In this document: one piece after another, positions 1 to 16,940 of the stretch | How positions within the stretch are numbered: the stretch's first letter is position 1 | How the letters are laid out: the number at the start of each line of letters is the position of its first letter | Notes under the pieces: model-generated | What the model was told of the DNA's origin: nothing | Database searches by the model: none | The model's input: only the letters and a program-made list of their open reading frames with translations | Program-made: the position numbers and the translations under genes | From: a bacterium | GTDB lineage: Bacteria > SZUA-182 > DTGQ01 | Reading direction: 5' to 3' | DNA length: 16,940 nucleotides | NCBI GenBank assembly: GCA_040755755.1 | Contig: JBFLZW010000079.1 | Coordinates: forward strand, 60,506-77,445

Positions 1-1163
1 TGGCTGTGGGATCGAATACCAATGGCCAATGCAATACAGCCAGTTGGACCGATATCGTTCAGGTTGCTGCGGGAGATTACCATACTGTGGGGCTAAGGTC
101 AGATGGTTCTGTCGTGGCTGTGGGATCAAATACCAATGGCCAATGCAATACAGCCAGTTGGACTGATATCATCCAGGTTGCTGCGGGAGGGACTCATACC
201 GTAGGGCTAAAGTCAGATGGTTCTGTCGTGGCTGTGGGATCCAATAGCTATGGCCAATGTAATACAGCCAGTTGGACTGATATCGTTCAGGTCGCTGCGG
301 GAGATTATCATACCGCAGGGTTAACGTCAGATGGTTCTGTCGTGGCTGTGGGATCAAATACCAATGGCCAATGCAATACAGCCAGTTGGACCGATATCAT
401 CCAGGTTGCTGCGGGAGGGACTCATACTGTAGGGCTAAAGTCAGATGGTTCTGTTGCGGCTGTGGGATCCAATATCAATGACCAATGCAATACAGCCAGT
501 TGGACCGATATCATTCAGATTGCTGCGGGAGATTACCATACTGTGGGGCTAAGGTCAGATGGTTCTGTCGTGGCTGTGGGATCCAATACCTATGGCCAAT
601 GCAATACAGCCAGTTGGACTGATATCATTCAGATTGCTGCTGGTGGGACTCATACCGTAGGGCTAAAATCAGACGGTTCTGTCGTGGCTGTGGGATCAAA
701 TACCTATGGCCAATGCAATACCAGCAGTTGGACCGGTATCATTCAGATTGCTGCGGGAGATTACCATACCGCAGGGCTCAGATCAGGCGGTTCTCTTGTG
801 GCTGTGGGATCCAATAGCTATGGCCAAGGCAATACCGGCAGTTGGACTGATATCTTTCAGATTGCTGCGAAAGATTACCGTACCATAGGGCTAAAATCAG
901 ACGGTTCCGTTGTGGCTGTAGGATCGAATAGTGATAGCCAATGCAACGTATTCGACTGGACGTTATTTATTGAGGTTATTCCTGGTGACGTAGACGGTGA
1001 TGGAGACGTTAGTCCTGATGATCGGGTCATTATAATGGGGGCACTTCGTAAACACACCGGCGATACCGGTTTTATCGATGAAGCTGATTACGATATGGAT
1101 GGATGTATCACCTTCAATGATTATCGGATATGGTATGGATATTACAAGGATTTTACCTTGTAA
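1..1163 (+). CDS. RCC1-repeat protein with C-terminal dockerin (5' partial)
   Basis: The frame is open at the left edge (first complete codon at base 3), so the start, any signal peptide and earlier repeats lie outside. At least 385 residues are visible. Eight full 38-residue units, plus a ninth that degenerates, follow the pattern GSNxxGQCNTxSWTDIxQxAAG-(D/G)-(Y/T)-HTxGLxSDGSVVAV, which is the RCC1/ATS1 beta-propeller repeat as found in bacterial secreted proteins. After the last unit comes a type I dockerin with two Ca-binding loops, D328-VDGDGDVSPD-D339 and D361-YDMDGCITFN-D372 (numbered from the GTG codon at base 6). Dockerins bind cohesins, so the protein is probably secreted and docked to a partner; the next gene downstream encodes a cohesin-like protein. 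The gap to it is 72 bp with no terminator seen, so co-transcription is possible. The RCC1 fold and dockerin are clear; the ligand of the propeller is unknown. Confidence 0.9.
   Translation, partial: AVGSNTNGQCNTASWTDIVQVAAGDYHTVGLRSDGSVVAVGSNTNGQCNTASWTDIIQVAAGGTHTVGLKSDGSVVAVGSNSYGQCNTASWTDIVQVAAGDYHTAGLTSDGSVVAVGSNTNGQCNTASWTDIIQVAAGGTHTVGLKSDGSVAAVGSNINDQCNTASWTDIIQIAAGDYHTVGLRSDGSVVAVGSNTYGQCNTASWTDIIQIAAGGTHTVGLKSDGSVVAVGSNTYGQCNTSSWTGIIQIAAGDYHTAGLRSGGSLVAVGSNSYGQGNTGSWTDIFQIAAKDYRTIGLKSDGSVVAVGSNSDSQCNVFDWTLFIEVIPGDVDGDGDVSPDDRVIIMGALRKHTGDTGFIDEADYDMDGCITFNDYRIWYGYYKDFTL
6..959 (+). repeat. 114-bp in-frame tandem repeats (RCC1 units)
   Basis: Repeat units start at 6, 120, 234, 348, 462, 576, 690, 804 and 918, exactly 114 bp apart, and the ninth decays after about 42 bp. 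Units alternate: odd ones carry GDYHT and even ones GGTHT in the middle of the unit. The real unit of amplification is therefore a 228-bp dimer for the first six units. Units 7 and 8 have drifted. The array continues beyond the left edge. Confidence 0.92.
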
Positions 1164-1235: not shown

Positions 1236-1835
1236 ATGAAGAAAGTATGGTTAATCTTATCCTTAGCAATAATTCTTATCTTTTCTGCCGTAATACCAAT
1301 CCAGGCAATACCGACCGTGGGTTTAAACGTGCCTGATGGTGACATCAGACCAGGAGATAACTTTACCGTAGAGGTTTGGGCAGATGGTGACAGCATCGGT
1401 CAAGATCTCTTGGCCTTCGGTTTTAATGTTATACCGGGAGCCATTTTTCACTATAATGGCTATGCCATTCAATCCGGTTTCTCCGATGCTTCAGACCCTC
1501 TCAATCCATTTAATGTCAGTGGTTGGGGGAGTATTTCTGATGACGATGTCCTCCTGGCAACCCTTTCATTCACGAGCCTTGCTGCCGGTATGGGTAATCT
1601 CCAAGTCCAGGGACCTTACGATGGGTTATTTTATGGATTGTTTTATGAATCTGATGGATATACTATCAACACGACAGCCGATATTCCTGTTCATAATCCC
1701 CCTCCTCCGCCTGTTGATCCGCCCCCTCCTGTTGATCCCCCTCCTCCTGTACCAATAGCAGGATCAAGCACTATGGTTCTTCTGAGCTTCGGGCTTGTGA
1801 TTGTCGGATTCAGGAAAAGGGGTTGGAAGGGTTAA
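1236..1835 (+). CDS. Secreted cohesin-like protein with PEP-CTERM-like tail
   Basis: 199 residues. Residues 1-24 form a Sec signal peptide (KK, then a hydrophobic core, ending ...IPIQA). Residues 26-150 look like a cohesin-type beta-sandwich: VGLNVPDGDIRPGDNFTVEV near the start, a central LLAFGFNV strand, and LLATLSFTSLAAG, a pattern common in cohesin-like PEP-CTERM proteins. Residues 155-173 are a Pro/Asp/Val stalk. The C-terminus has VPIAG, a hydrophobic stretch from about 179 to 191, then FRKRGWKG. This has the layout of the PEP-CTERM/VPxxA sorting tails processed by an exosortase, but with a non-canonical motif in place of PEP. The start is set by AGGGAG at 1222-1227, eight bases upstream of ATG. 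The preceding gene ends in a dockerin, so the two products may bind each other (inference). No exosortase is in the window. Confidence 0.78.
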   Translation: MKKVWLILSLAIILIFSAVIPIQAIPTVGLNVPDGDIRPGDNFTVEVWADGDSIGQDLLAFGFNVIPGAIFHYNGYAIQSGFSDASDPLNPFNVSGWGSISDDDVLLATLSFTSLAAGMGNLQVQGPYDGLFYGLFYESDGYTINTTADIPVHNPPPPPVDPPPPVDPPPPVPIAGSSTMVLLSFGLVIVGFRKRGWKG

Positions 1836-1868
1836 TTTATCACACTGTATTAGTGTGTGTATACAAGG

Positions 1869-1899
1869 GGCAGAGTCACTCGTGGCTCTGCCTTTTTTT
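1869..1899 (+). terminator. Rho-independent terminator
   Basis: A stem of ten pairs (GGCAGAGTCA with TGGCTCTGCC, one G-U pair) has a four-base loop and is followed directly by seven T (1893-1899). It lies 33 bp after the stop of the cohesin-like gene and probably ends that transcript. Confidence 0.88.
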
Positions 1900-2576
1900 A
1901 TTTCTCCAGGACAACCCGGCTATCCCAGGAGGAGCGATAGTGAGGATGGATAATGTGTCATTGCCGAGTTAAAATGTCCAGCAGAGTGAGCTGTTCAGGC
2001 AAGCAGACGATCAGTGGATTGAAAATAGACGATCCTCGAATGCTTGCGTCTTAAAAATAGACGTATTTACCGCCCCAGTGAGTATGGGCACTTCCCCAAA
2101 CGGCTTCTTTTCCTTCGTGATGAACAGAAACAACAGTATCTTATGGTAAAAATTAAAACATGGCACTGGATATGCTATAACAAGAAATGGAAGCAAGGGA
2201 AAAGGCAAATTCGAATTATTCTGCACGAAAAACCGGATACTCCCCCTCGTGAGAAACCATAAACCAATCTGCAGGAGTACACCTGGAGGGGTGTCTCATC
2301 GATTGGAGACATGGACAATCACTCAGGAGGGCAGCCCCGATAAGAATGGGGAATGTCTGCTGAAAAATCTCATGACGTTACCAGAATCAATGAATTTGAC
2401 CATGTACTCTGCCAAGCGGTCTATCATACAGAAAATATCCTTGAAGGAAGGGAGGTGATACAGTATTCAGATAAGGTGCATTCATTCCATGTCTGGTGAT
2501 CCAAAGAGTAAGTCATTCAAGTTTTAAATGCATTGTATATTGGGTTAAGGGAAGAAAATAAGGAGAATTACAAATT
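1900..2576. other. Gene-free stretch upstream of the secreted protein cluster
   Basis: No convincing gene is present. The short open frames here lack ribosome sites and have no recognisable content. Bases 1951-2063 contain several related short motifs: TTAAAATGTCC at 1969-1979, AAAATAGACG at 2022-2031 and again at 2054-2063, AGACGATC twice, and an inverted GCAAGC/GCTTGC pair. This looks like a decayed end of an insertion sequence, but no transposase is present. Bases 2161-2181 carry a promoter-like site. Between 2280 and 2390 there are small hairpins, for example CCCC/GGGG around 2335-2350, within what would be a leader of about 390 bases ahead of the gene at 2577. Confidence 0.4.
2161..2181 (+). 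promoter_or_regulatory. Sigma-54-like (or extended -10) promoter
   Basis: TGGCACTGGATATGCT at 2161-2176 matches the -24/-12 consensus with GG and GC separated by ten bases; only the TTGC element deviates (ATGC). The same bases run into TGCTATAAC (2173-2181), which could serve as an extended -10 box for sigma-70. The choice between the two cannot be made from sequence. The next gene starts about 400 bp downstream. Confidence 0.35.
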
Positions 2577-3206
2577 ATGTACCGCAAGAACCGCATCTCC
2601 AGCATCTTTGTATTTGCATTGGCAATAACTCTGGGATTTGGATTGCTCTATACGCCTGCTACCCTGGCAGCAAACTGGATCAACCTTCCACCGTATAATA
2701 CGCTATGGCCGTTATGGTCTCCGCCTCTTTCGCCGACTAACCCTCTGACCGGACTCCCCACGCCGATTGTCAGCAATCTGAAGCCGAGTACGGTATTGCC
2801 GGTACAGCCCGGTCTGACCTGGGATCCCCGCAAGACCTATCCCTGGCTGCTGTACAACACTCCGCTGGGTATGGCTTATTACGATCCCCTCTATGGTATT
2901 GATACCTGGCCTCCATCCTACCTGAAAGATCCTATTACCGGACTTCCCGCTCCGATCAACCTTTCCCTGATCAAAGGCTGGAGCCTTCTTCTGCCAACAG
3001 CGCAAAGCTGGCTGACCAACAATGTGCCGGTAGCCAACAATGCCTTTATTGCTGCCTATCCGGCCTATGCTGTCGCCTATGAGATCCTGCAGGGAGGAAC
3101 CCTGGCCAGTTATCCGATCTTTGCCGCACTTCTGAATCCGCCGCCTCCATTGCAATCACTGTTGACTCCGGCTCTCATTCTGGGATTAGGACCCCTTGTT
3201 CCTTAA
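2577..3206 (+). CDS. Secreted protein with LPPYNTLWPLWSP module (unknown family)
   Basis: 209 residues; function not recognised. A Sec signal peptide covers residues 1-31 (RKNR, hydrophobic core, cut near TLA-A). The mature part is rich in Pro, Leu, Trp and Tyr with very few charged residues. Residues 33-116 form a conserved module including LPPYNTLWPLWSP, PSTVLPVQPGLTWDP and YPWLLYNTP-x-GMAYYDPLYGI. By my count 68 of 84 positions are identical in the protein encoded at 4117-4818. Inside this protein the segment around residues 47-75 (WSPPL...PLTGLPTPI) recurs imperfectly at 111-140 (WPPSYL...PITGLPAPI), suggesting an internal duplication. The start is supported by AGGAG at 2561-2565, 11 bases from ATG. 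It is the first of three small secreted proteins in a row. No enzyme motif, cysteine or anchor is visible; it could be a surface or matrix protein. Confidence 0.82.
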   Translation: MYRKNRISSIFVFALAITLGFGLLYTPATLAANWINLPPYNTLWPLWSPPLSPTNPLTGLPTPIVSNLKPSTVLPVQPGLTWDPRKTYPWLLYNTPLGMAYYDPLYGIDTWPPSYLKDPITGLPAPINLSLIKGWSLLLPTAQSWLTNNVPVANNAFIAAYPAYAVAYEILQGGTLASYPIFAALLNPPPPLQSLLTPALILGLGPLVP

Positions 3207-3296
3207 AAGGGATATACTTCTTATTGTAATTCCGGATTCAGGGAAAAGGACCTCCATTTTTGGGGGATTGCATTTACGGAAAAACAGCAGGAACAA

Positions 3297-3344
3297 CACA
3301 AAGCCCGGACCGGTGCTGCAAAAGCATCCGGTCCGAGGTTTGTG
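3297..3344. other. Long imperfect hairpin between two secreted-protein genes
   Basis: Bases 3297-3344 fold back on themselves. CACAAA pairs with TTTGTG at the base, CC with GG, GGACCGG (3307-3313) with CCGGTCC (3328-3334), and TGCT with AGCA next to a short loop, with single-base bulges. No T-run follows on either strand, so it is not a typical terminator. It may be a processing, stability or attenuation element in the 228-bp gap between the genes at 2577 and 3435. Confidence 0.5.
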
Positions 3345-3434
3345 AGTGTCCATCTGTCCTTACCAAATCAAGAAATTACACCACCAGCACTTGATAATAA
3401 GTAACTTTTTCGAAAAAAATAAAGGAGATCAGGT

Positions 3435-3872
3435 ATGAAAAATTTCTGTCAATTTCTTCTATTTATCATTATCTTGACGGCAATAATGCTCATCCCGTCA
3501 GCTCAGGCTCAGGTAAGTCCCTTTTCCAGTTTTCCCAACCTGTTCTTTTGCCCATTTGCCTATTGTCCATTTCTTCCTCCGCCACTGCCCCTTGCCGCTC
3601 CTGCGACTGATTTCGGTCGCTATGCCCATGCCCCCCTGACCACTGCATCTCTCTTTCCCGCACCCGTCCTGCCCACAGCACCGGCTGCTACCGTTGGCGG
3701 GGTCGGCGTAACCTCGCTCATTCCCACGGTTTCGATTGCAGCGACGGTACCGGCCAGTCTGCTGGTCACTAATCCGCTGGCACCACTCATCACCTATACT
3801 CCCTTGAGTCTGGTGGGCCTGACGTATGCCCCGGTTCCGGCTCCAGCCCTGCCTGTTTCCATTGCCATATAG
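3435..3872 (+). CDS. Small secreted Ala/Pro-rich protein, unknown
   Basis: 145 residues; not recognised. A signal peptide covers residues 1-26 (MKNF, hydrophobic core, ending SAQA-Q). The mature chain starts with an aromatic, Cys-containing stretch (FPNLFFCPFAYCPFLPPPLP), with two cysteines five residues apart. A low-complexity region of Ala, Pro, Val, Thr and Leu with almost no charge follows. The start is well defined by AAAGGAG at 3421-3427, seven bases from ATG. It lacks the 84-residue module of its two neighbours but shares their style: signal peptide, little charge, many prolines, similar length. The 244-bp gap to the next gene holds a small CGCGG/CCGCG hairpin near 3893-3907 and no clear terminator, so the three genes may be one transcript. 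Confidence 0.75.
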   Translation: MKNFCQFLLFIIILTAIMLIPSAQAQVSPFSSFPNLFFCPFAYCPFLPPPLPLAAPATDFGRYAHAPLTTASLFPAPVLPTAPAATVGGVGVTSLIPTVSIAATVPASLLVTNPLAPLITYTPLSLVGLTYAPVPAPALPVSIAI

Positions 3873-4116
3873 CATGAAGCTCAGCGCGGTAAATCCGCGG
3901 CCTGTACGCAAGCATTCACTCCTCTCTCCTTTTCTGGAATTTCGGCATTTGTGCCATTTTAACCGACGGGAACCGGATGACAAGGGAGGACTGAACGATT
4001 ACCCTGGAGGAGGTGAAGTTTTTATTCGAAACAAGGACAGATATTCAACATCTTGGTAAATGACAATCTTTATATCAACAATTTTTTCATATTTCCTGAA
4101 GGAGAAAAAAATAGCT

Positions 4117-4818
4117 ATGTTTTCAAAACCCAGCATGAAAAGATTACCAGCAGGAGTATTGTTCTTCACCATATTCATTGCAGCCCTGGCCCTATCATCA
4201 GCAGTTCAGGCCGTTCCCGGAGGATCCGGTGCTAACTGGGCAGCCTTGCCGCCATACAATACTCTCTGGCCCCTATGGTCGCCCGCTCTGTCACCCATTA
4301 GTGCAATAACCGGATTTCCCACTCCGATAGTGACTAACCTGGCTCCATCTACGGTACTTCCCGTGCAGCCTGGTTTGACCTGGGATCCGGCAAGACTTTA
4401 TCCCTGGCTTTTGTACAACACTCCGGCTGGCATGGCCTATTACGATCCTCTCTACGGAATCAATCTCTGGCCGCCGAGCTATTTAACCCTCGGCCCTATC
4501 GCCCTGCCTCCCAATTATGCCAACCTGGCGCCGACCAGCAGCCTCTGGCTCAGCACGTATGTACCCCTTGCCAATGCGCTCTACCTGAAATCCCTGCCCA
4601 AATTCTCCTCCCTGCCATCCGCACCGGTAACTGCCCCCACGGTCATTCCTCCTGTTCCTCCCGTGCCTCCTGTCCCGGTTGTTCCCACAGCTACCCTGGC
4701 TGCGGTTCCCCCGGTACCTCCGGTGCCGACAACCTTTATTCCTCCGGTGCCGCCGGTACCGACAACGACTCCCCCTGCTCCTGTTCCTCCTCTTTTGACT
4801 CCGACGGCGATTATTTGA
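4117..4818 (+). CDS. Secreted protein with LPPYNTLWPLWSP module and Pro-rich tail
   Basis: 233 residues from the ATG at 4117, which lies 12 bases after AGGAG (4100-4104). An upstream ATG at 4060 in the same frame would add 19 residues before the signal peptide and has no ribosome site. The signal peptide ends near residue 32 (SSAVQA-VPGG). Residues 40-123 are the conserved module shared with the protein at 2577-3206 (about 81% identity by eye). A weaker match continues through WLSTYVPLANALYL. From residue 174 the chain becomes PPVPPVP-type repeats to the end, a stalk or extended region absent from the paralogue. The nucleotide copies have diverged clearly, so the duplication is not recent. 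No function is known to me. A strong terminator follows, making this the last gene of the cluster. Confidence 0.82.
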   Translation: MFSKPSMKRLPAGVLFFTIFIAALALSSAVQAVPGGSGANWAALPPYNTLWPLWSPALSPISAITGFPTPIVTNLAPSTVLPVQPGLTWDPARLYPWLLYNTPAGMAYYDPLYGINLWPPSYLTLGPIALPPNYANLAPTSSLWLSTYVPLANALYLKSLPKFSSLPSAPVTAPTVIPPVPPVPPVPVVPTATLAAVPPVPPVPTTFIPPVPPVPTTTPPAPVPPLLTPTAII

Positions 4819-4874: not shown

Positions 4875-4911
4875 CAGGGTCTGTCTTTACGACAGACCCT
4901 GCTTGTTTTTT
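4875..4911 (+). terminator. Rho-independent terminator after the secreted-protein cluster
   Basis: A perfect 11-bp stem, CAGGGTCTGTC (4875-4885) with GACAGACCCTG (4891-4901), has a five-base loop. GCTTG-like sequence and six T (4906-4911) follow. Only the plus strand has the T-run, so it serves the gene ending at 4818 and not the convergent gene ending at 4968. Confidence 0.9.
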
Positions 4912-4967: not shown

Positions 4968-7900
4968 TTAATCCAGGCACGAGGGCTGACCAAAAAACTT
5001 TGCTGTCAGACAGGACACATCTTCCGGGCTTACCTTCCCATCCTGGTTAACATCGGCACACTCAGGACACGTGCCATTACCCAGGTAGCAATTAAAGATA
5101 ATCCCGGCATCCTTCATGGTAACTGTTCCGTCACCATCAATATCTCCGTTGCACTGAGGGGGAATACTCAAAATGCCGCCGGTTGCAGAGAACCAGCCGA
5201 TATCATCTCCAAGATTTTCCAGTTGCAGGAAATAGCCCTGATTTTCCTGGCCGCCCGCAGTCCTGAATTTCAACCTGACCAGATAGCCGCTTGCTCCTTT
5301 GAGGACGCCTCCTGCAGGAGATGATCCGCTTATCCTGATCCTGCCGGGGCAAAGAAGCTTGACATCAAAGGTCGGGAAAGAGCCTGCCAGATTCCCCGGC
5401 TCGAAGCTTCCGGTATAGGTCAAGCTTTCCGGGTTATAAATGACGTCAAAGCCAAAGGTATGGACAGCATTCGGTGCTGACTGGATCCTTACCGGAATCA
5501 GAATATCCTGTCCTGCCTTACCTGGAGTCCCCTGGATATCCAGTTGACCTGTCTCGTTTTCCACCTGTCCCTGCGAACTGCAAACGGCTGTGCTGTCCCC
5601 TCCCTGACAATTATCATCCTGGCCATTACAGGGAATTTCAGGAGCGGTGGGATGAACGTTCCGGTCTGCATCGTTACAATCGGTGCTGTTGGCAACATAG
5701 CCGTCAGGAGCTGCCGAGCATGCCTGAATGCTTGAGGAAGCATCGCCATAGCCGTCTCCATCGCTATCCGTATAGTAGGTATTCATGGCGATACCTTCGT
5801 CCGTCTGACCATCACAGTCATTGTCCTTCCCATCGCAGACCTCATTCTGAGGCTGCGGTGCAGTGCAGCCGACCCACTGGCCGCTCTGGCAGGTTTCCAT
5901 TCCGCTTCCACAGACAGTCGAGCAGGGCCTGGTCAGGCCTTCATCCGTCTGACCGTCCAGGTCATTATCCTTCCCATCACAGATCTCGGCCTCGGGCTGC
6001 GGTGCATTGCACCCCACCCACTGACCGCTCTGACAGGTTTCTGTTCCCTGACCATTGCCACAGGGCCTGGTCAGGCCTTCATCCGTCTGACCATCACAGT
6101 CATTGTCCTTCCCATCGCAGACTTCAGCCTCGGACTGTGGTGCATTACACCCGACCCACTGGCCGCTCTGACAGGTTTCTGTTCCAGTACCACAAGCAGT
6201 CGAGCAGAGCCTGATCAGGCCTTCATCCGTCTGACCATCACAGTCATTGTCCTTCCCATCACAGATCTCATCTTCGGGCTGCGGTGCAGTGCACCCGATC
6301 CACTGGCCGCTCTGACAGGTTTCCAATCCAGCACCACAGGCAGTTAAGCAGGGCCTTGTCAGGTCTTCATCCGTCTGACCGTCCAGGTCATTGTCCTTCC
6401 CATCACAGATCTCATCTTCGGGCTGCGGTGCAGTGCACCCGATCCACTGGCCGCTCTGACAGGTTTCTACTCCCTGACCATTGCTACAGGGCCTGGTCAG
6501 GCCTTCATCCGTCTGGTTGTCACAATCATTATCCTTCCCATCGCAGATCTCGGCCTCAGGCTGCGGTGCAGTGCACCCGACCCACTGGCCGCTCTGGCAG
6601 GTTTCCAATCCAGCACCACAGGCAGTATCGCAGGGCCTTGTCAAATTCTCGTCTACCTGGCCATCACAGTCATTGTCATTCCCATCACAGATCTCACTCT
6701 GGGGCTGCGGTGCAGTGCACCCGACCCACTGGCCGCTCTGGCAGGTTTCCAATCCAGCACCACAGGCAGTATCGCAGGGCCTTGTCAAATTCTCGTCCAC
6801 CTGGCCGTCTAAATCATTATCCTGGCCATCGCAGACTTCCTCATGCTGCTCTCCGCATGCTCCGGTATGGGCTATGCTCACCAAATTTGCAGCAGCCAGG
6901 CACCAGTTACCATAGGTCTGGCCGTCACACCCACAGACCGGATCGGATACATCCGGACATGGAGTCCTGGGTGAGCTTGAGCAGACTCCCTGTCCAGTGC
7001 AATCCCCGATTTTCCTCTGGCAGAAATCTCCATCTCCTGTGCACTGGTCATTATCCCGGCATCCTGCTGCACCAAAAGCGTAGATCCGGTAATCATAACT
7101 TGCAATATAGAGGGTGCTGTCAGCACCAATGGCTGGCGAGGAATAGATCTGACCTCTGGTCCGGTAGCTCCAGACCAGGCTGCTATCGGGTCTCAGTGCA
7201 TAAATCCGGCCGTCGAGGCTTCCGATGTAGATTGTGCCATCAACTCCCAGGGCCGGAGAAGAATAAACAGCACCACCAGTCTGGTAACTCCACTTCAGCC
7301 TGCCATCCGGCTTTATGGCATAAACCTTGCTGTCATGGCTTCCGATATAGACTATGCCATCACTTCCTATGGCTGGCGATGAATGAACCTGGTCACGGGT
7401 TCGGAATGTCCATTTCAGGATAGGATTATCGCCTTTAACTTCCAGGGCATATACTGCACCGTCCTCACTTGCGATGTAAATCGTATTGTTGGTTCCTACA
7501 GCCAAGCCGACCAGGGAGGATGGCGTGCCATTTTCGCTGACTGGATAATTCCAGCGCAGGCTTCCATCAGGCCTGAAGGCGTAGAGCCTGCCATCAGCGC
7601 CTGCTGCATAGATTGTGCCATCCGGTCCGAGAGCCGGCGAGGAATACAGGTAGAGGGGGGCAGTCTGACTGGCCCAGAGAACCGTACCATCCTGAGGAGC
7701 GAGGGCATAAATTTTTCCATCATGATTTCCGATATAAATCGTGCCGTCCTGCCCGATGACCGGTGAGGACTCGGTTTGATATCCGGTCGGGCTGTCCCAC
7801 TTCTTGCTGCCATCCGGTTTTACGGCATGGACTATGCCATCGTAGCTTCCCACATAAATCGTACCGTCCGCTCCGATAGCCGGTGAGGCATAAATTTTAT

Positions 7901-8234
7901 CTGTGGCCTGATATTTCCAGAGCAGACCGCCGCTCTCCGGTTTCAGGGCATACAGTTTACTGTCCAGTCCTGCGATATAGACTGTGCCGTCCATGCCTAT
8001 GACCGGCGAGGAGTAGATCTTATCCGCAGTCTGGTATCTCCATTTCAGGGTGCCGGTCTGGGCTCCAAGATAAGGGCTCTGGCCAGTGCGGCCTGAATTG
8101 TACCCCCGGCATGGCCAGGCACTTTCGGCCATTCCCTGGGCAAAAGCAGTTCCCATTGCGGCTACAGCCAGCGTGAATACCACAGCCGTGGTTATAAAAA
8201 ATAAAATTCCCTTTAACCTGCAATAACTTCTCAT
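4968..8234 (-). CDS. Secreted mosaic: PQQ propeller, Kazal, MopE-type repeats, cohesin, dockerin
   Basis: 1088 residues, starting at ATG 8234 after a GGAAAGGG-type ribosome site. A signal peptide covers residues 1-32 (...GTAFA-QG). Residues 62-388 carry eight blades of the pattern W-x-Y...SSPAIG-x-DGTIYIG-x-DG-x-YAL, a PQQ-like beta-propeller. Residues 391-460 are cysteine-rich and end in a Kazal-like module (DPVCGCDGQTYGN). Residues 466-813 hold eight repeats E(I/V)CDGxDND(C/L)DGQ(T/V)DE, the putative metal-binding motif of MopE-like proteins. A Ca-loop-like DSDGDGYGD follows at 823-831. Residues 893-1025 resemble a cohesin (AGQDILIPVRI, FGFDVIYNPESL, LVRLKF). Residues 1029-1085 are a dockerin with loops DIDGDGTVTMKD and DVNQDGKVSPED. 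The protein could both receive a dockerin and dock onto a cohesin. Its role is probably extracellular assembly or adhesion; no catalytic domain is seen. Confidence 0.92.
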   Translation of the reverse strand: MRSYCRLKGILFFITTAVVFTLAVAAMGTAFAQGMAESAWPCRGYNSGRTGQSPYLGAQTGTLKWRYQTADKIYSSPVIGMDGTVYIAGLDSKLYALKPESGGLLWKYQATDKIYASPAIGADGTIYVGSYDGIVHAVKPDGSKKWDSPTGYQTESSPVIGQDGTIYIGNHDGKIYALAPQDGTVLWASQTAPLYLYSSPALGPDGTIYAAGADGRLYAFRPDGSLRWNYPVSENGTPSSLVGLAVGTNNTIYIASEDGAVYALEVKGDNPILKWTFRTRDQVHSSPAIGSDGIVYIGSHDSKVYAIKPDGRLKWSYQTGGAVYSSPALGVDGTIYIGSLDGRIYALRPDSSLVWSYRTRGQIYSSPAIGADSTLYIASYDYRIYAFGAAGCRDNDQCTGDGDFCQRKIGDCTGQGVCSSSPRTPCPDVSDPVCGCDGQTYGNWCLAAANLVSIAHTGACGEQHEEVCDGQDNDLDGQVDENLTRPCDTACGAGLETCQSGQWVGCTAPQPQSEICDGNDNDCDGQVDENLTRPCDTACGAGLETCQSGQWVGCTAPQPEAEICDGKDNDCDNQTDEGLTRPCSNGQGVETCQSGQWIGCTAPQPEDEICDGKDNDLDGQTDEDLTRPCLTACGAGLETCQSGQWIGCTAPQPEDEICDGKDNDCDGQTDEGLIRLCSTACGTGTETCQSGQWVGCNAPQSEAEVCDGKDNDCDGQTDEGLTRPCGNGQGTETCQSGQWVGCNAPQPEAEICDGKDNDLDGQTDEGLTRPCSTVCGSGMETCQSGQWVGCTAPQPQNEVCDGKDNDCDGQTDEGIAMNTYYTDSDGDGYGDASSSIQACSAAPDGYVANSTDCNDADRNVHPTAPEIPCNGQDDNCQGGDSTAVCSSQGQVENETGQLDIQGTPGKAGQDILIPVRIQSAPNAVHTFGFDVIYNPESLTYTGSFEPGNLAGSFPTFDVKLLCPGRIRISGSSPAGGVLKGASGYLVRLKFRTAGGQENQGYFLQLENLGDDIGWFSATGGILSIPPQCNGDIDGDGTVTMKDAGIIFNCYLGNGTCPECADVNQDGKVSPEDVSCLTAKFFGQPSCLD
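5796..6839 (-). repeat. MopE-type metal-binding repeats, eight units
   Basis: In-frame repeats of 48, 48, 46, 48, 48, 46 and 48 residues separate successive CDG motifs (residues 468, 516, 564, 610, 658, 706, 752, 800). Two independent markers follow a period of three: the short unit with NGQG is the 3rd and 6th, and the DND(L/C)D position reads L,C,C,L,C,C,L,C. The higher-order unit is therefore about 142 residues (426 bp). Confidence 0.9.
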
Positions 8235-16357: not shown

Positions 16358-16940
16358 TCAAATTACCGGCGGTAATAAGGTAGCTGCAAATGAACCTGTC
16401 CCGATAACCGTGGTGCTATTGATCTGCGTATAAGTACCGGTCATTTCAGTGGGAGAGGTAAGTGTGCAAACCAGGTCAAGCTGAATGGTCTGGCTGCCAA
16501 TTCCGATAGCGGAACCGGAAAGAATGATCTGGGTGTTGAGTATCTCTCCAGTTACCGGTACCAGGACTCCAAGGTTCGGGTTACCCAGCATCTGTACATA
16601 ACCGGTAACAGTGGTTGTTAATACCGGATCTACAACAAGATTCAACGTCATAGGCCCTGTGACATAGGCTACCGTCTTTGTGGAACCGGACCAGGTACCT
16701 GACCATGTTCCAGCTTGTTCGGCAAGACCGTATCTCAGGCTCAAGCCACCCAGTCCGCCATACAGCCCGCCAAGGCCATAGAGCCCGCCAAGGCCGTACA
16801 GGCCATAGAGGCCACCACCCAGTCCGTACATACTGCCATACAGGCCGCCAAGGCCATACAGGCTGCCATACAGCCCGCCACCGTACAGGCCATACAGCCC
16901 GCCACCATACAGGCCATACATGCTGCCATACAGCCCGCCA
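16358..16940 (-). CDS. Gly/Leu/Tyr repeat protein with beta-rich C-terminal domain (5' partial)
   Basis: The frame stays open to the right edge, so the start and any signal peptide are outside; 194 residues are visible. The upstream half is a low-complexity run built of GLYG, GGLYG and GSMYGLGG units with almost only Gly, Leu and Tyr, plus some Ser and Met. After SLRYGLAEQ it changes to a domain of about 115 residues, AGTWSGTW...TGPMTLNLVV...TTTVTGYV...LDLVCTLTSPTEMTGTYTQINS...GTGSFAATL. This has the alternating pattern of a small beta-barrel or sandwich found at the ends of secreted proteins. No named family is recognised. The repeat composition resembles structural silk-like or adhesive extracellular proteins (inference). 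The ATG inside the repeats near 16921 is only an internal methionine. A strong terminator follows the stop. Confidence 0.75.
   Translation of the reverse strand, partial: GGLYGSMYGLYGGGLYGLYGGGLYGSLYGLGGLYGSMYGLGGGLYGLYGLGGLYGLGGLYGGLGGLSLRYGLAEQAGTWSGTWSGSTKTVAYVTGPMTLNLVVDPVLTTTVTGYVQMLGNPNLGVLVPVTGEILNTQIILSGSAIGIGSQTIQLDLVCTLTSPTEMTGTYTQINSTTVIGTGSFAATLLPPVI
16745..16940 (-). repeat. GLYG-coding short tandem repeats
   Basis: Imperfect DNA repeats based on TACAGGCC and CAGCCCGCCA (plus-strand view) encode GLYG/GGLYG units. Unit lengths vary, so there is no fixed period; the pattern fits expansion by slippage. The array continues beyond the window edge. Confidence 0.8.

Follow-up and report, generated by a model that had tools for sequence, protein, structure and literature searches.

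In a stretch of 16,940 nt from an uncultured bacterium (here called the window), two genes for secreted proteins lie on either side of a third one and share a module rich in tryptophan, tyrosine and proline. The locus raises the question to which kind of protein this module belongs, how widely it occurs and what it may serve for.

The locus and its signals

Both genes are located on the forward strand. Member A (2577–3206, 209 aa, LQSLLTP subtype) was assigned from its ORF with ribosome-binding site, the family search and its position in the family tree; it starts with an ATG at 2577, preceded by an AAGGAG ribosome-binding site at 2560. Member B (4117–4818, 233 aa) is a secreted protein with a long Pro-rich linker, assigned from its ORF with ribosome-binding site and from an orthologue in a sister species (locus L090). 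Its start is the ATG at 4117, with AAGGAG at 4099; the ORF list gives 4060, an in-frame start that would lengthen the protein, but the ribosome-binding site belongs to 4117. The original prediction had given the two proteins a module of about 81% identity. A search of the whole genome returned 85 residues at 81% identity with E = 2e-42, hence the similarity is not due to chance. Also the third secreted protein proved to be real (3435–3872, forward strand, 145 aa, rich in Pro, Ala, Thr and Val), with copies in four genomes, and the set is indeed closed by a strong intrinsic terminator (4875–4911, forward strand; stem 4875–4901 plus T-run, −23.6 kcal/mol, z −5.65). A further computed intrinsic terminator (1865–1905, forward strand) separates the set from the upstream gene at 1236–1835. 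Between member A and the middle gene there is a very stable hairpin (3290–3350; −32 kcal/mol, z −6.25) without T-run. It may act as a REP-like element or stabilise the mRNA.

Family size and distribution

Only two paralogues had been counted before. They are related, but the number was far too low, as the genome holds about 32. With the module as query, this genome (5.26 Mb in 88 contigs, 97.6% complete) gave 34 places, which correspond to 32 distinct genes because one gene is split, its parts being at the ends of contigs C32 and C83, and another one was reported as two pieces. The two contig ends share exactly 127 identical bases, a length that fits an assembly overlap. With the full protein as query, 22, 16, 23 and 13 matches were found in four other genomes of the order and none in four further genomes of the same class. 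When 386 genomes were searched with a profile of 99 members, nothing beyond the known carriers was found. From a collection of 84,980 species a pattern scan, which reaches close relatives only as it was built on one protein, returned just the records of four MAG assemblies, and these are the related genomes. Among viral contigs and plasmids no relatives were found. Within the genomes searched, the family is confined to a single order within a small phylum.

The description as an unrecognised family held throughout. The window members had no profile match above the curated cut-offs of Pfam, NCBIfam and PHROGs, and when all 99 mature members were compared with Pfam the best result was a chance match (E 0.015) in one member. 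The PDB gave no match by sequence and, as detailed below, none by fold. Thus, the family lies outside everything tested by sequence and fold.

Core, linker and C-terminal peptide

It had been assumed that the chains diverge completely outside a module of 84 residues. This does not hold. In an alignment of 99 sequences the conserved unit extends to about residue 125 (LxPTxxxWLxxxVPxANxxY), a second conserved part is formed by a C-terminal LLTPxxLLG-like peptide, and only the linker between them is free to vary. This architecture of core, linker and C-terminal peptide is found in most of the 99 members. Conserved positions of the core are W2, PPYN 6–9, LWPLWS 11–16, LSP 19–21, P31, T40, LP 42–43, P46, W50, YN 61–62, G66, G75, WPP 79–81, L97, L106 and N122. 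The invariant or near-invariant positions are aromatic, Pro and Leu residues, and the alignment holds no conserved Ser/His/Cys/Asp/Glu set of the catalytic type. The mature chains are rich in P (17%), L (16%), Y (7%) and W (5.7%), and D, E, K and R together make up 6.2% of the core, in agreement with its earlier description as almost uncharged and rich in aromatic residues. Cys is nearly absent from the family, and a conserved Cys of the lipobox type does not occur in the 99 sequences.

A signal peptide was predicted by a heuristic for 97 of 101 members; among the other four are ORFs truncated where a contig ends. In member A it is encoded at 2577–2669, with a predicted Sec cleavage site at about PATLA/ANW. 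At the other end, the chains close with hydrophobic peptides of the LLTPxxLLG type without a basic tail. They thus do not qualify as PEP-CTERM substrates of exosortases, which carry a PEP motif, a transmembrane helix and a basic tail at the C-terminus. A general sorting signal was rejected for this peptide, as no protein from outside the family carries it in the 1.1 Mb examined.

The linkers consist of 24% Pro, 14% Ala and 11% Thr and range from 4 to more than 100 residues, with a median of 12. They differ strongly from paralogue to paralogue, and several are low-complexity repeats such as APTFAPTF or APLPVPT.

Predicted structure

With the family alignment as input, AlphaFold2 modelled member A with a pLDDT of 93.1 and a pTM of 0.87. 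Its core (mature residues 1–129, encoded at 2673–3059), delimited by the alignment, is predicted to be globular at a pLDDT of mostly 95–98. The following linker (3060–3155), which falls into gapped alignment columns, is here modelled as mostly helical (pLDDT 71–89 by blocks), and the conserved C-terminal peptide SLLTPALILGLGPLVP (3156–3203) returns to about 95 in residues 161–170. The same course is seen in member B, where a core of mature residues 1–121 (4234–4596, pLDDT about 97) is followed by a Pro/Val/Thr-rich linker (4597–4779) that is predicted to be disordered over most of its length (pLDDT 57–76 by blocks) and by a putative docking peptide, PPLLTPTAII (4780–4815, pLDDT about 87–97). 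All these segments are on the forward strand.

Foldseek searches of the PDB with the two models gave best E values of 2.3 and 3.2, none of them significant. VIA-align found no Z of 2 or more, and predicted structures of viral proteins did not match the family model either. Judged against the PDB and the viral models, the core would provisionally represent a new fold. The claim of novelty concerns the protein family and its predicted fold and does not extend to a demonstrated function.

Judged from confidence values and DSSP rather than from coordinates, the models are most simply read as a C-terminal peptide packed on the core in a fixed arrangement. A monomer model is blind to the difference between docking within one chain and docking between chains. 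The peptide might instead be donated to the core of the next subunit, so that a polymer arises in which linker length sets the repeat spacing. A conserved peptide beyond a disordered linker, predicted as confidently as the core itself, is what such an exchange would lead one to expect, and most of the 99 members share this architecture. However, the monomer models place the peptide on its own chain, and for the many short linkers (the median of 12 residues given above) docking within the chain is the simpler solution. We consider donor-peptide exchange, which partly overlaps with a role in surface structures, unlikely. Its most far-reaching form, a new fold together with a new extracellular polymer in which each tail plugs the next core and the paralogues co-assemble with the companion protein into a coat specific to the order, appears a shade more unlikely still.

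Selection and age of the paralogues

For 16 orthologue pairs from two species of the genus, many of which also have flanking genes in common, dS in the core was 0.65–1.43 and dN 0.034–0.143, giving dN/dS of 0.04–0.18. The core is under strong purifying selection between these sister species, and the C-terminal peptide is 67–100% identical across the same pairs. For member B and its orthologue L090 the core is 88% identical at a dN/dS of 0.055. Within subtype A, the proteins encoded by the window copy and by the copy on contig C32 are 97% identical, but their DNA only 88.6%. This rules out gene conversion as the cause of their near-identity, which is instead explained by purifying selection.

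In the family tree, in which 49 of the 96 inner branches are well supported, paralogue clades are common to different genera and to two families of the order. Therefore, the diversification of the paralogues is old. Most members are lone genes at scattered loci. One cluster of five family genes is common to both sister species and has clade-mates in a second family of the order, and a separate five-gene cluster exists in another genome.

Old paralogues, each conserved between species, suggest that each has its own job. Together with the very different linkers and the abundance of aromatic residues, which are common in binding surfaces, this is consistent with a set of diversified secreted binding proteins, adhesins or ligand-capture proteins, in which a common scaffold presents a linker loop or variable surface that determines the partner. 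Yet it is the common core and not a variable face that is conserved most, and linker repeats such as those listed above do not look like binding sites. We regard this alternative as doubtful. A multi-copy, secreted, lineage-restricted and variant-rich family might also be thought of as bacteriocin-like or effector proteins for antagonism. Here the selection data point in the opposite direction, since the core is preserved instead of diversified and orthologues are kept between species; moreover, no immunity-like partner genes and no match to a toxin family were seen. Such a function is very improbable.

A companion of one subtype

The middle protein of the locus belongs to a family of its own, with the motif APLTTxSLFPAPxLPxxPAxTxGGVGVTSLIPT. 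Six strong copies were found in four genomes (the window, G000:C32, G001:C61, G002:C151, G002:C89 and G003:C31) and two further weak matches at E of about 1e-7. All six strong copies are located directly downstream of a gene of the LQSLLTP subtype, on the same strand, which links the companion to this one subtype. Other members adjoin different small secreted proteins of similar style. Identified by ORF, ribosome-binding site and signal peptide, a recognisable companion exists for a minority of the members only.

The three proteins of the set had been proposed to be made together. For member A and the middle protein this is supported, since each of the four genomes with the middle protein also has the pair. 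The case is weaker for member B, whose orthologue L090 lacks such a pair and which has a leader element of its own at 4007.

A distal Shine-Dalgarno-like element in the leaders

This element, GAGGAGGTGA (4007–4016, forward strand), precedes the start of member B by 100 nt, and a corresponding one, AGGGAGGTGA (2449–2458, forward strand), that of member A by 118 nt. They are the only two in the window. Counting matches to AAGGAGGTGA with at least 9 of 10 bases, at a distance of more than 35 and at most 220 nt upstream of the start codon, the 10-mer was found in 29 of 96 family leaders, compared with 5 of 297 control leaders taken from the same loci (Fisher p 5e-15). As the motif had first been spotted by eye, an unbiased k-mer count was run afterwards, in which GGAGGTG ranked first among the 7-mers (24 versus 3, p 3e-13). 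A leader peptide behind this distal element could be ruled out, since a start codon does not follow consistently: any start codon at a distance of 2–12 nt was present in only 9 of 43 cases.

The element is thus a Shine-Dalgarno-like leader sequence that is not placed to start translation, as in STAB-SD elements. In the cry3A STAB-SD of Bacillus thuringiensis, likewise about 100 nt upstream of the start codon and not placed for translation, binding of the 30S subunit blocks RNase J1 (PMC4113751). Here, in contrast, it occurs in a distant lineage and in a whole gene family. Furthermore, RNase J (TIGR00649) was not detected in this genome (97.6% complete), whereas it was found in 13 of 14 control genomes. 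Therefore, any stabilising mechanism must differ from that of STAB-SD. The distal element might stabilise the mRNA by another mechanism, or it may be a ribosome standby site. If functional, it would extend a mainly Gram-positive type of leader to a lineage without detectable RNase J.

Two other modes of regulation were rejected. Sigma-54 promoters, considered as NtrC-type regulators adjoin members at a few loci, are not a general rule, their mean score being equal to that of shuffled controls. Riboswitches or other known leader RNAs gave no match above the Rfam gathering threshold in 137 kb; one sub-threshold chance match fell on the upstream terminator.

Neighbouring genes

A check suggested with the original prediction was whether homologues occur beside exosortase genes, of which the genome carries three, or beside cohesin and dockerin genes. 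This is not a general rule, as most copies sit alone and dispersed. According to Pfam and library searches, cohesin and dockerin domains are absent from the family members, and the only protein with them in the window is the neighbour at 4968–8234 (reverse strand). This is a large secreted mosaic of a PQQ-type beta-propeller, a Kazal domain, repeated MopE-type metal-binding motifs, cohesin and dockerin; a similar protein adjoins L090 in the sister species.

Several other genes of the window are worth describing. The ORF at 1236–1835 (forward strand) encodes a secreted protein of cohesin-like appearance with a PEP-CTERM-like C-terminus, i.e. a Pro-rich stretch, a hydrophobic helix and a basic tail, but has no library match. 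An ORF at 6–1163 (forward strand), cut by the 5' edge of the window, shows, by eye, RCC1-like repeats and a dockerin-like end segment. At 16358–16921 (reverse strand) a protein of Gly/Leu/Tyr repeats (GLYGL) with a non-repetitive C-terminal part is encoded, again without library match. As the last base of the window is also that of the contig, the real start of this gene may be outside the contig.

Outside the window, another expanded secreted family (about 757 aa, motif DNFEYWDSPxNHGW, about 11 genes in the genome, for instance L082 11056–13329, reverse strand) has a weak Ig-like Pfam match only, and several copies are near family genes. Sulfatase-domain proteins with long TPR tails (for instance L085 190–2952, reverse strand) have Thr in the usual place of Cys or Ser.

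These sulfatase-TPR proteins are expanded in the same order, with 10–14 matches per genome compared with 0–2 elsewhere in the class. Some 50 strong matches were found in the five genomes; about 10 of these are encoded no more than about 3 kb from a family gene, in each case on its strand, and they fall into about three conserved locus types. As orthologous loci are not independent of each other, this association is suggestive only. It could indicate that the family members are periplasmic or outer-membrane accessory proteins, partners or substrates of this enzyme of the alkaline phosphatase superfamily. However, such a neighbour is missing from the majority of family genes, and the majority of the enzymes are encoded away from family genes, which makes this explanation rather improbable.

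Comparison with known multigene families

The PE/PPE proteins of mycobacteria are a lineage-restricted multigene family with a conserved N-terminal domain and a variable, often repetitive C-terminal part. Some of their members are encoded in conserved gene pairs, and they are secreted or surface-associated. The family described here resembles them in being lineage-restricted, multigene and secreted, in the conserved N-terminal and variable C-terminal part and in the pairing of some genes. It is not a member of them, as no PE or PPE domain was matched by Pfam among its proteins, the heuristic predicts a Sec and not a type VII signal, the fold has no match, and the genome is of the Gram-negative type, with genes for beta-barrel porins. 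The biological pattern resembles that of lineage-specific multigene surface families such as these. With S-layer and extracellular matrix proteins the family has in common that its members are secreted, have few basic residues and no catalytic motif, and are probably abundant. In contrast to those, they are small (mature length about 145–290 aa), exist as dozens of paralogues and have no SLH, cohesin, dockerin or Ig-like domain.

A proposed role as surface or matrix building blocks

The explanation that we favour, at a probability of only about 0.4, is that the proteins are abundant, co-secreted building blocks of the cell surface or of a matrix, each made up of a scaffold that is fixed and a Pro/Thr-rich tether that varies. 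What the analysis has established is the family with its copy number, its confinement to one order, the selection on it, the link to the companion and the leader element. Export, fold and tail docking are predicted for the family, whereas its abundance, its surface location, the assembly into a coat or matrix, and a variable function of loops or spacers are inferred. The members would be Sec-exported structural proteins of the envelope or the extracellular space, belonging to a large family restricted to the order. Their core, rigid, uncharged and rich in Trp, Tyr and Pro, would comprise about 125 residues and be followed by the Pro/Ala/Thr-rich linker of variable length and by the short hydrophobic peptide of the LLTPxxLLG type, which may pack back on a core. 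Many paralogues would be made in large amounts at separate loci, and the LQSLLTP subtype would be co-expressed with its Pro/Ala/Thr-rich secreted companion. Family and companion may together form a surface coat or a matrix, in which the constant core would serve for packing and the linkers would determine the spacing or present variable loops. Counting against this reading, lone genes at dispersed loci also fit individually regulated proteins. Further points against it are the minority share of members with a recognisable companion and the result that RNase J, on which the best-known precedent for distal Shine-Dalgarno elements depends, was not detected in this genome.

An uncharged, Cys-poor, aromatic- and proline-rich core combined with a docking tail is a design for self-assembling protein materials that can be put to the test. 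For the organisms themselves, 13 to 32 genes per genome for one type of secreted protein are a heavy and conserved investment, which implies that these proteins are central to the envelope or the lifestyle of this uncultured lineage.
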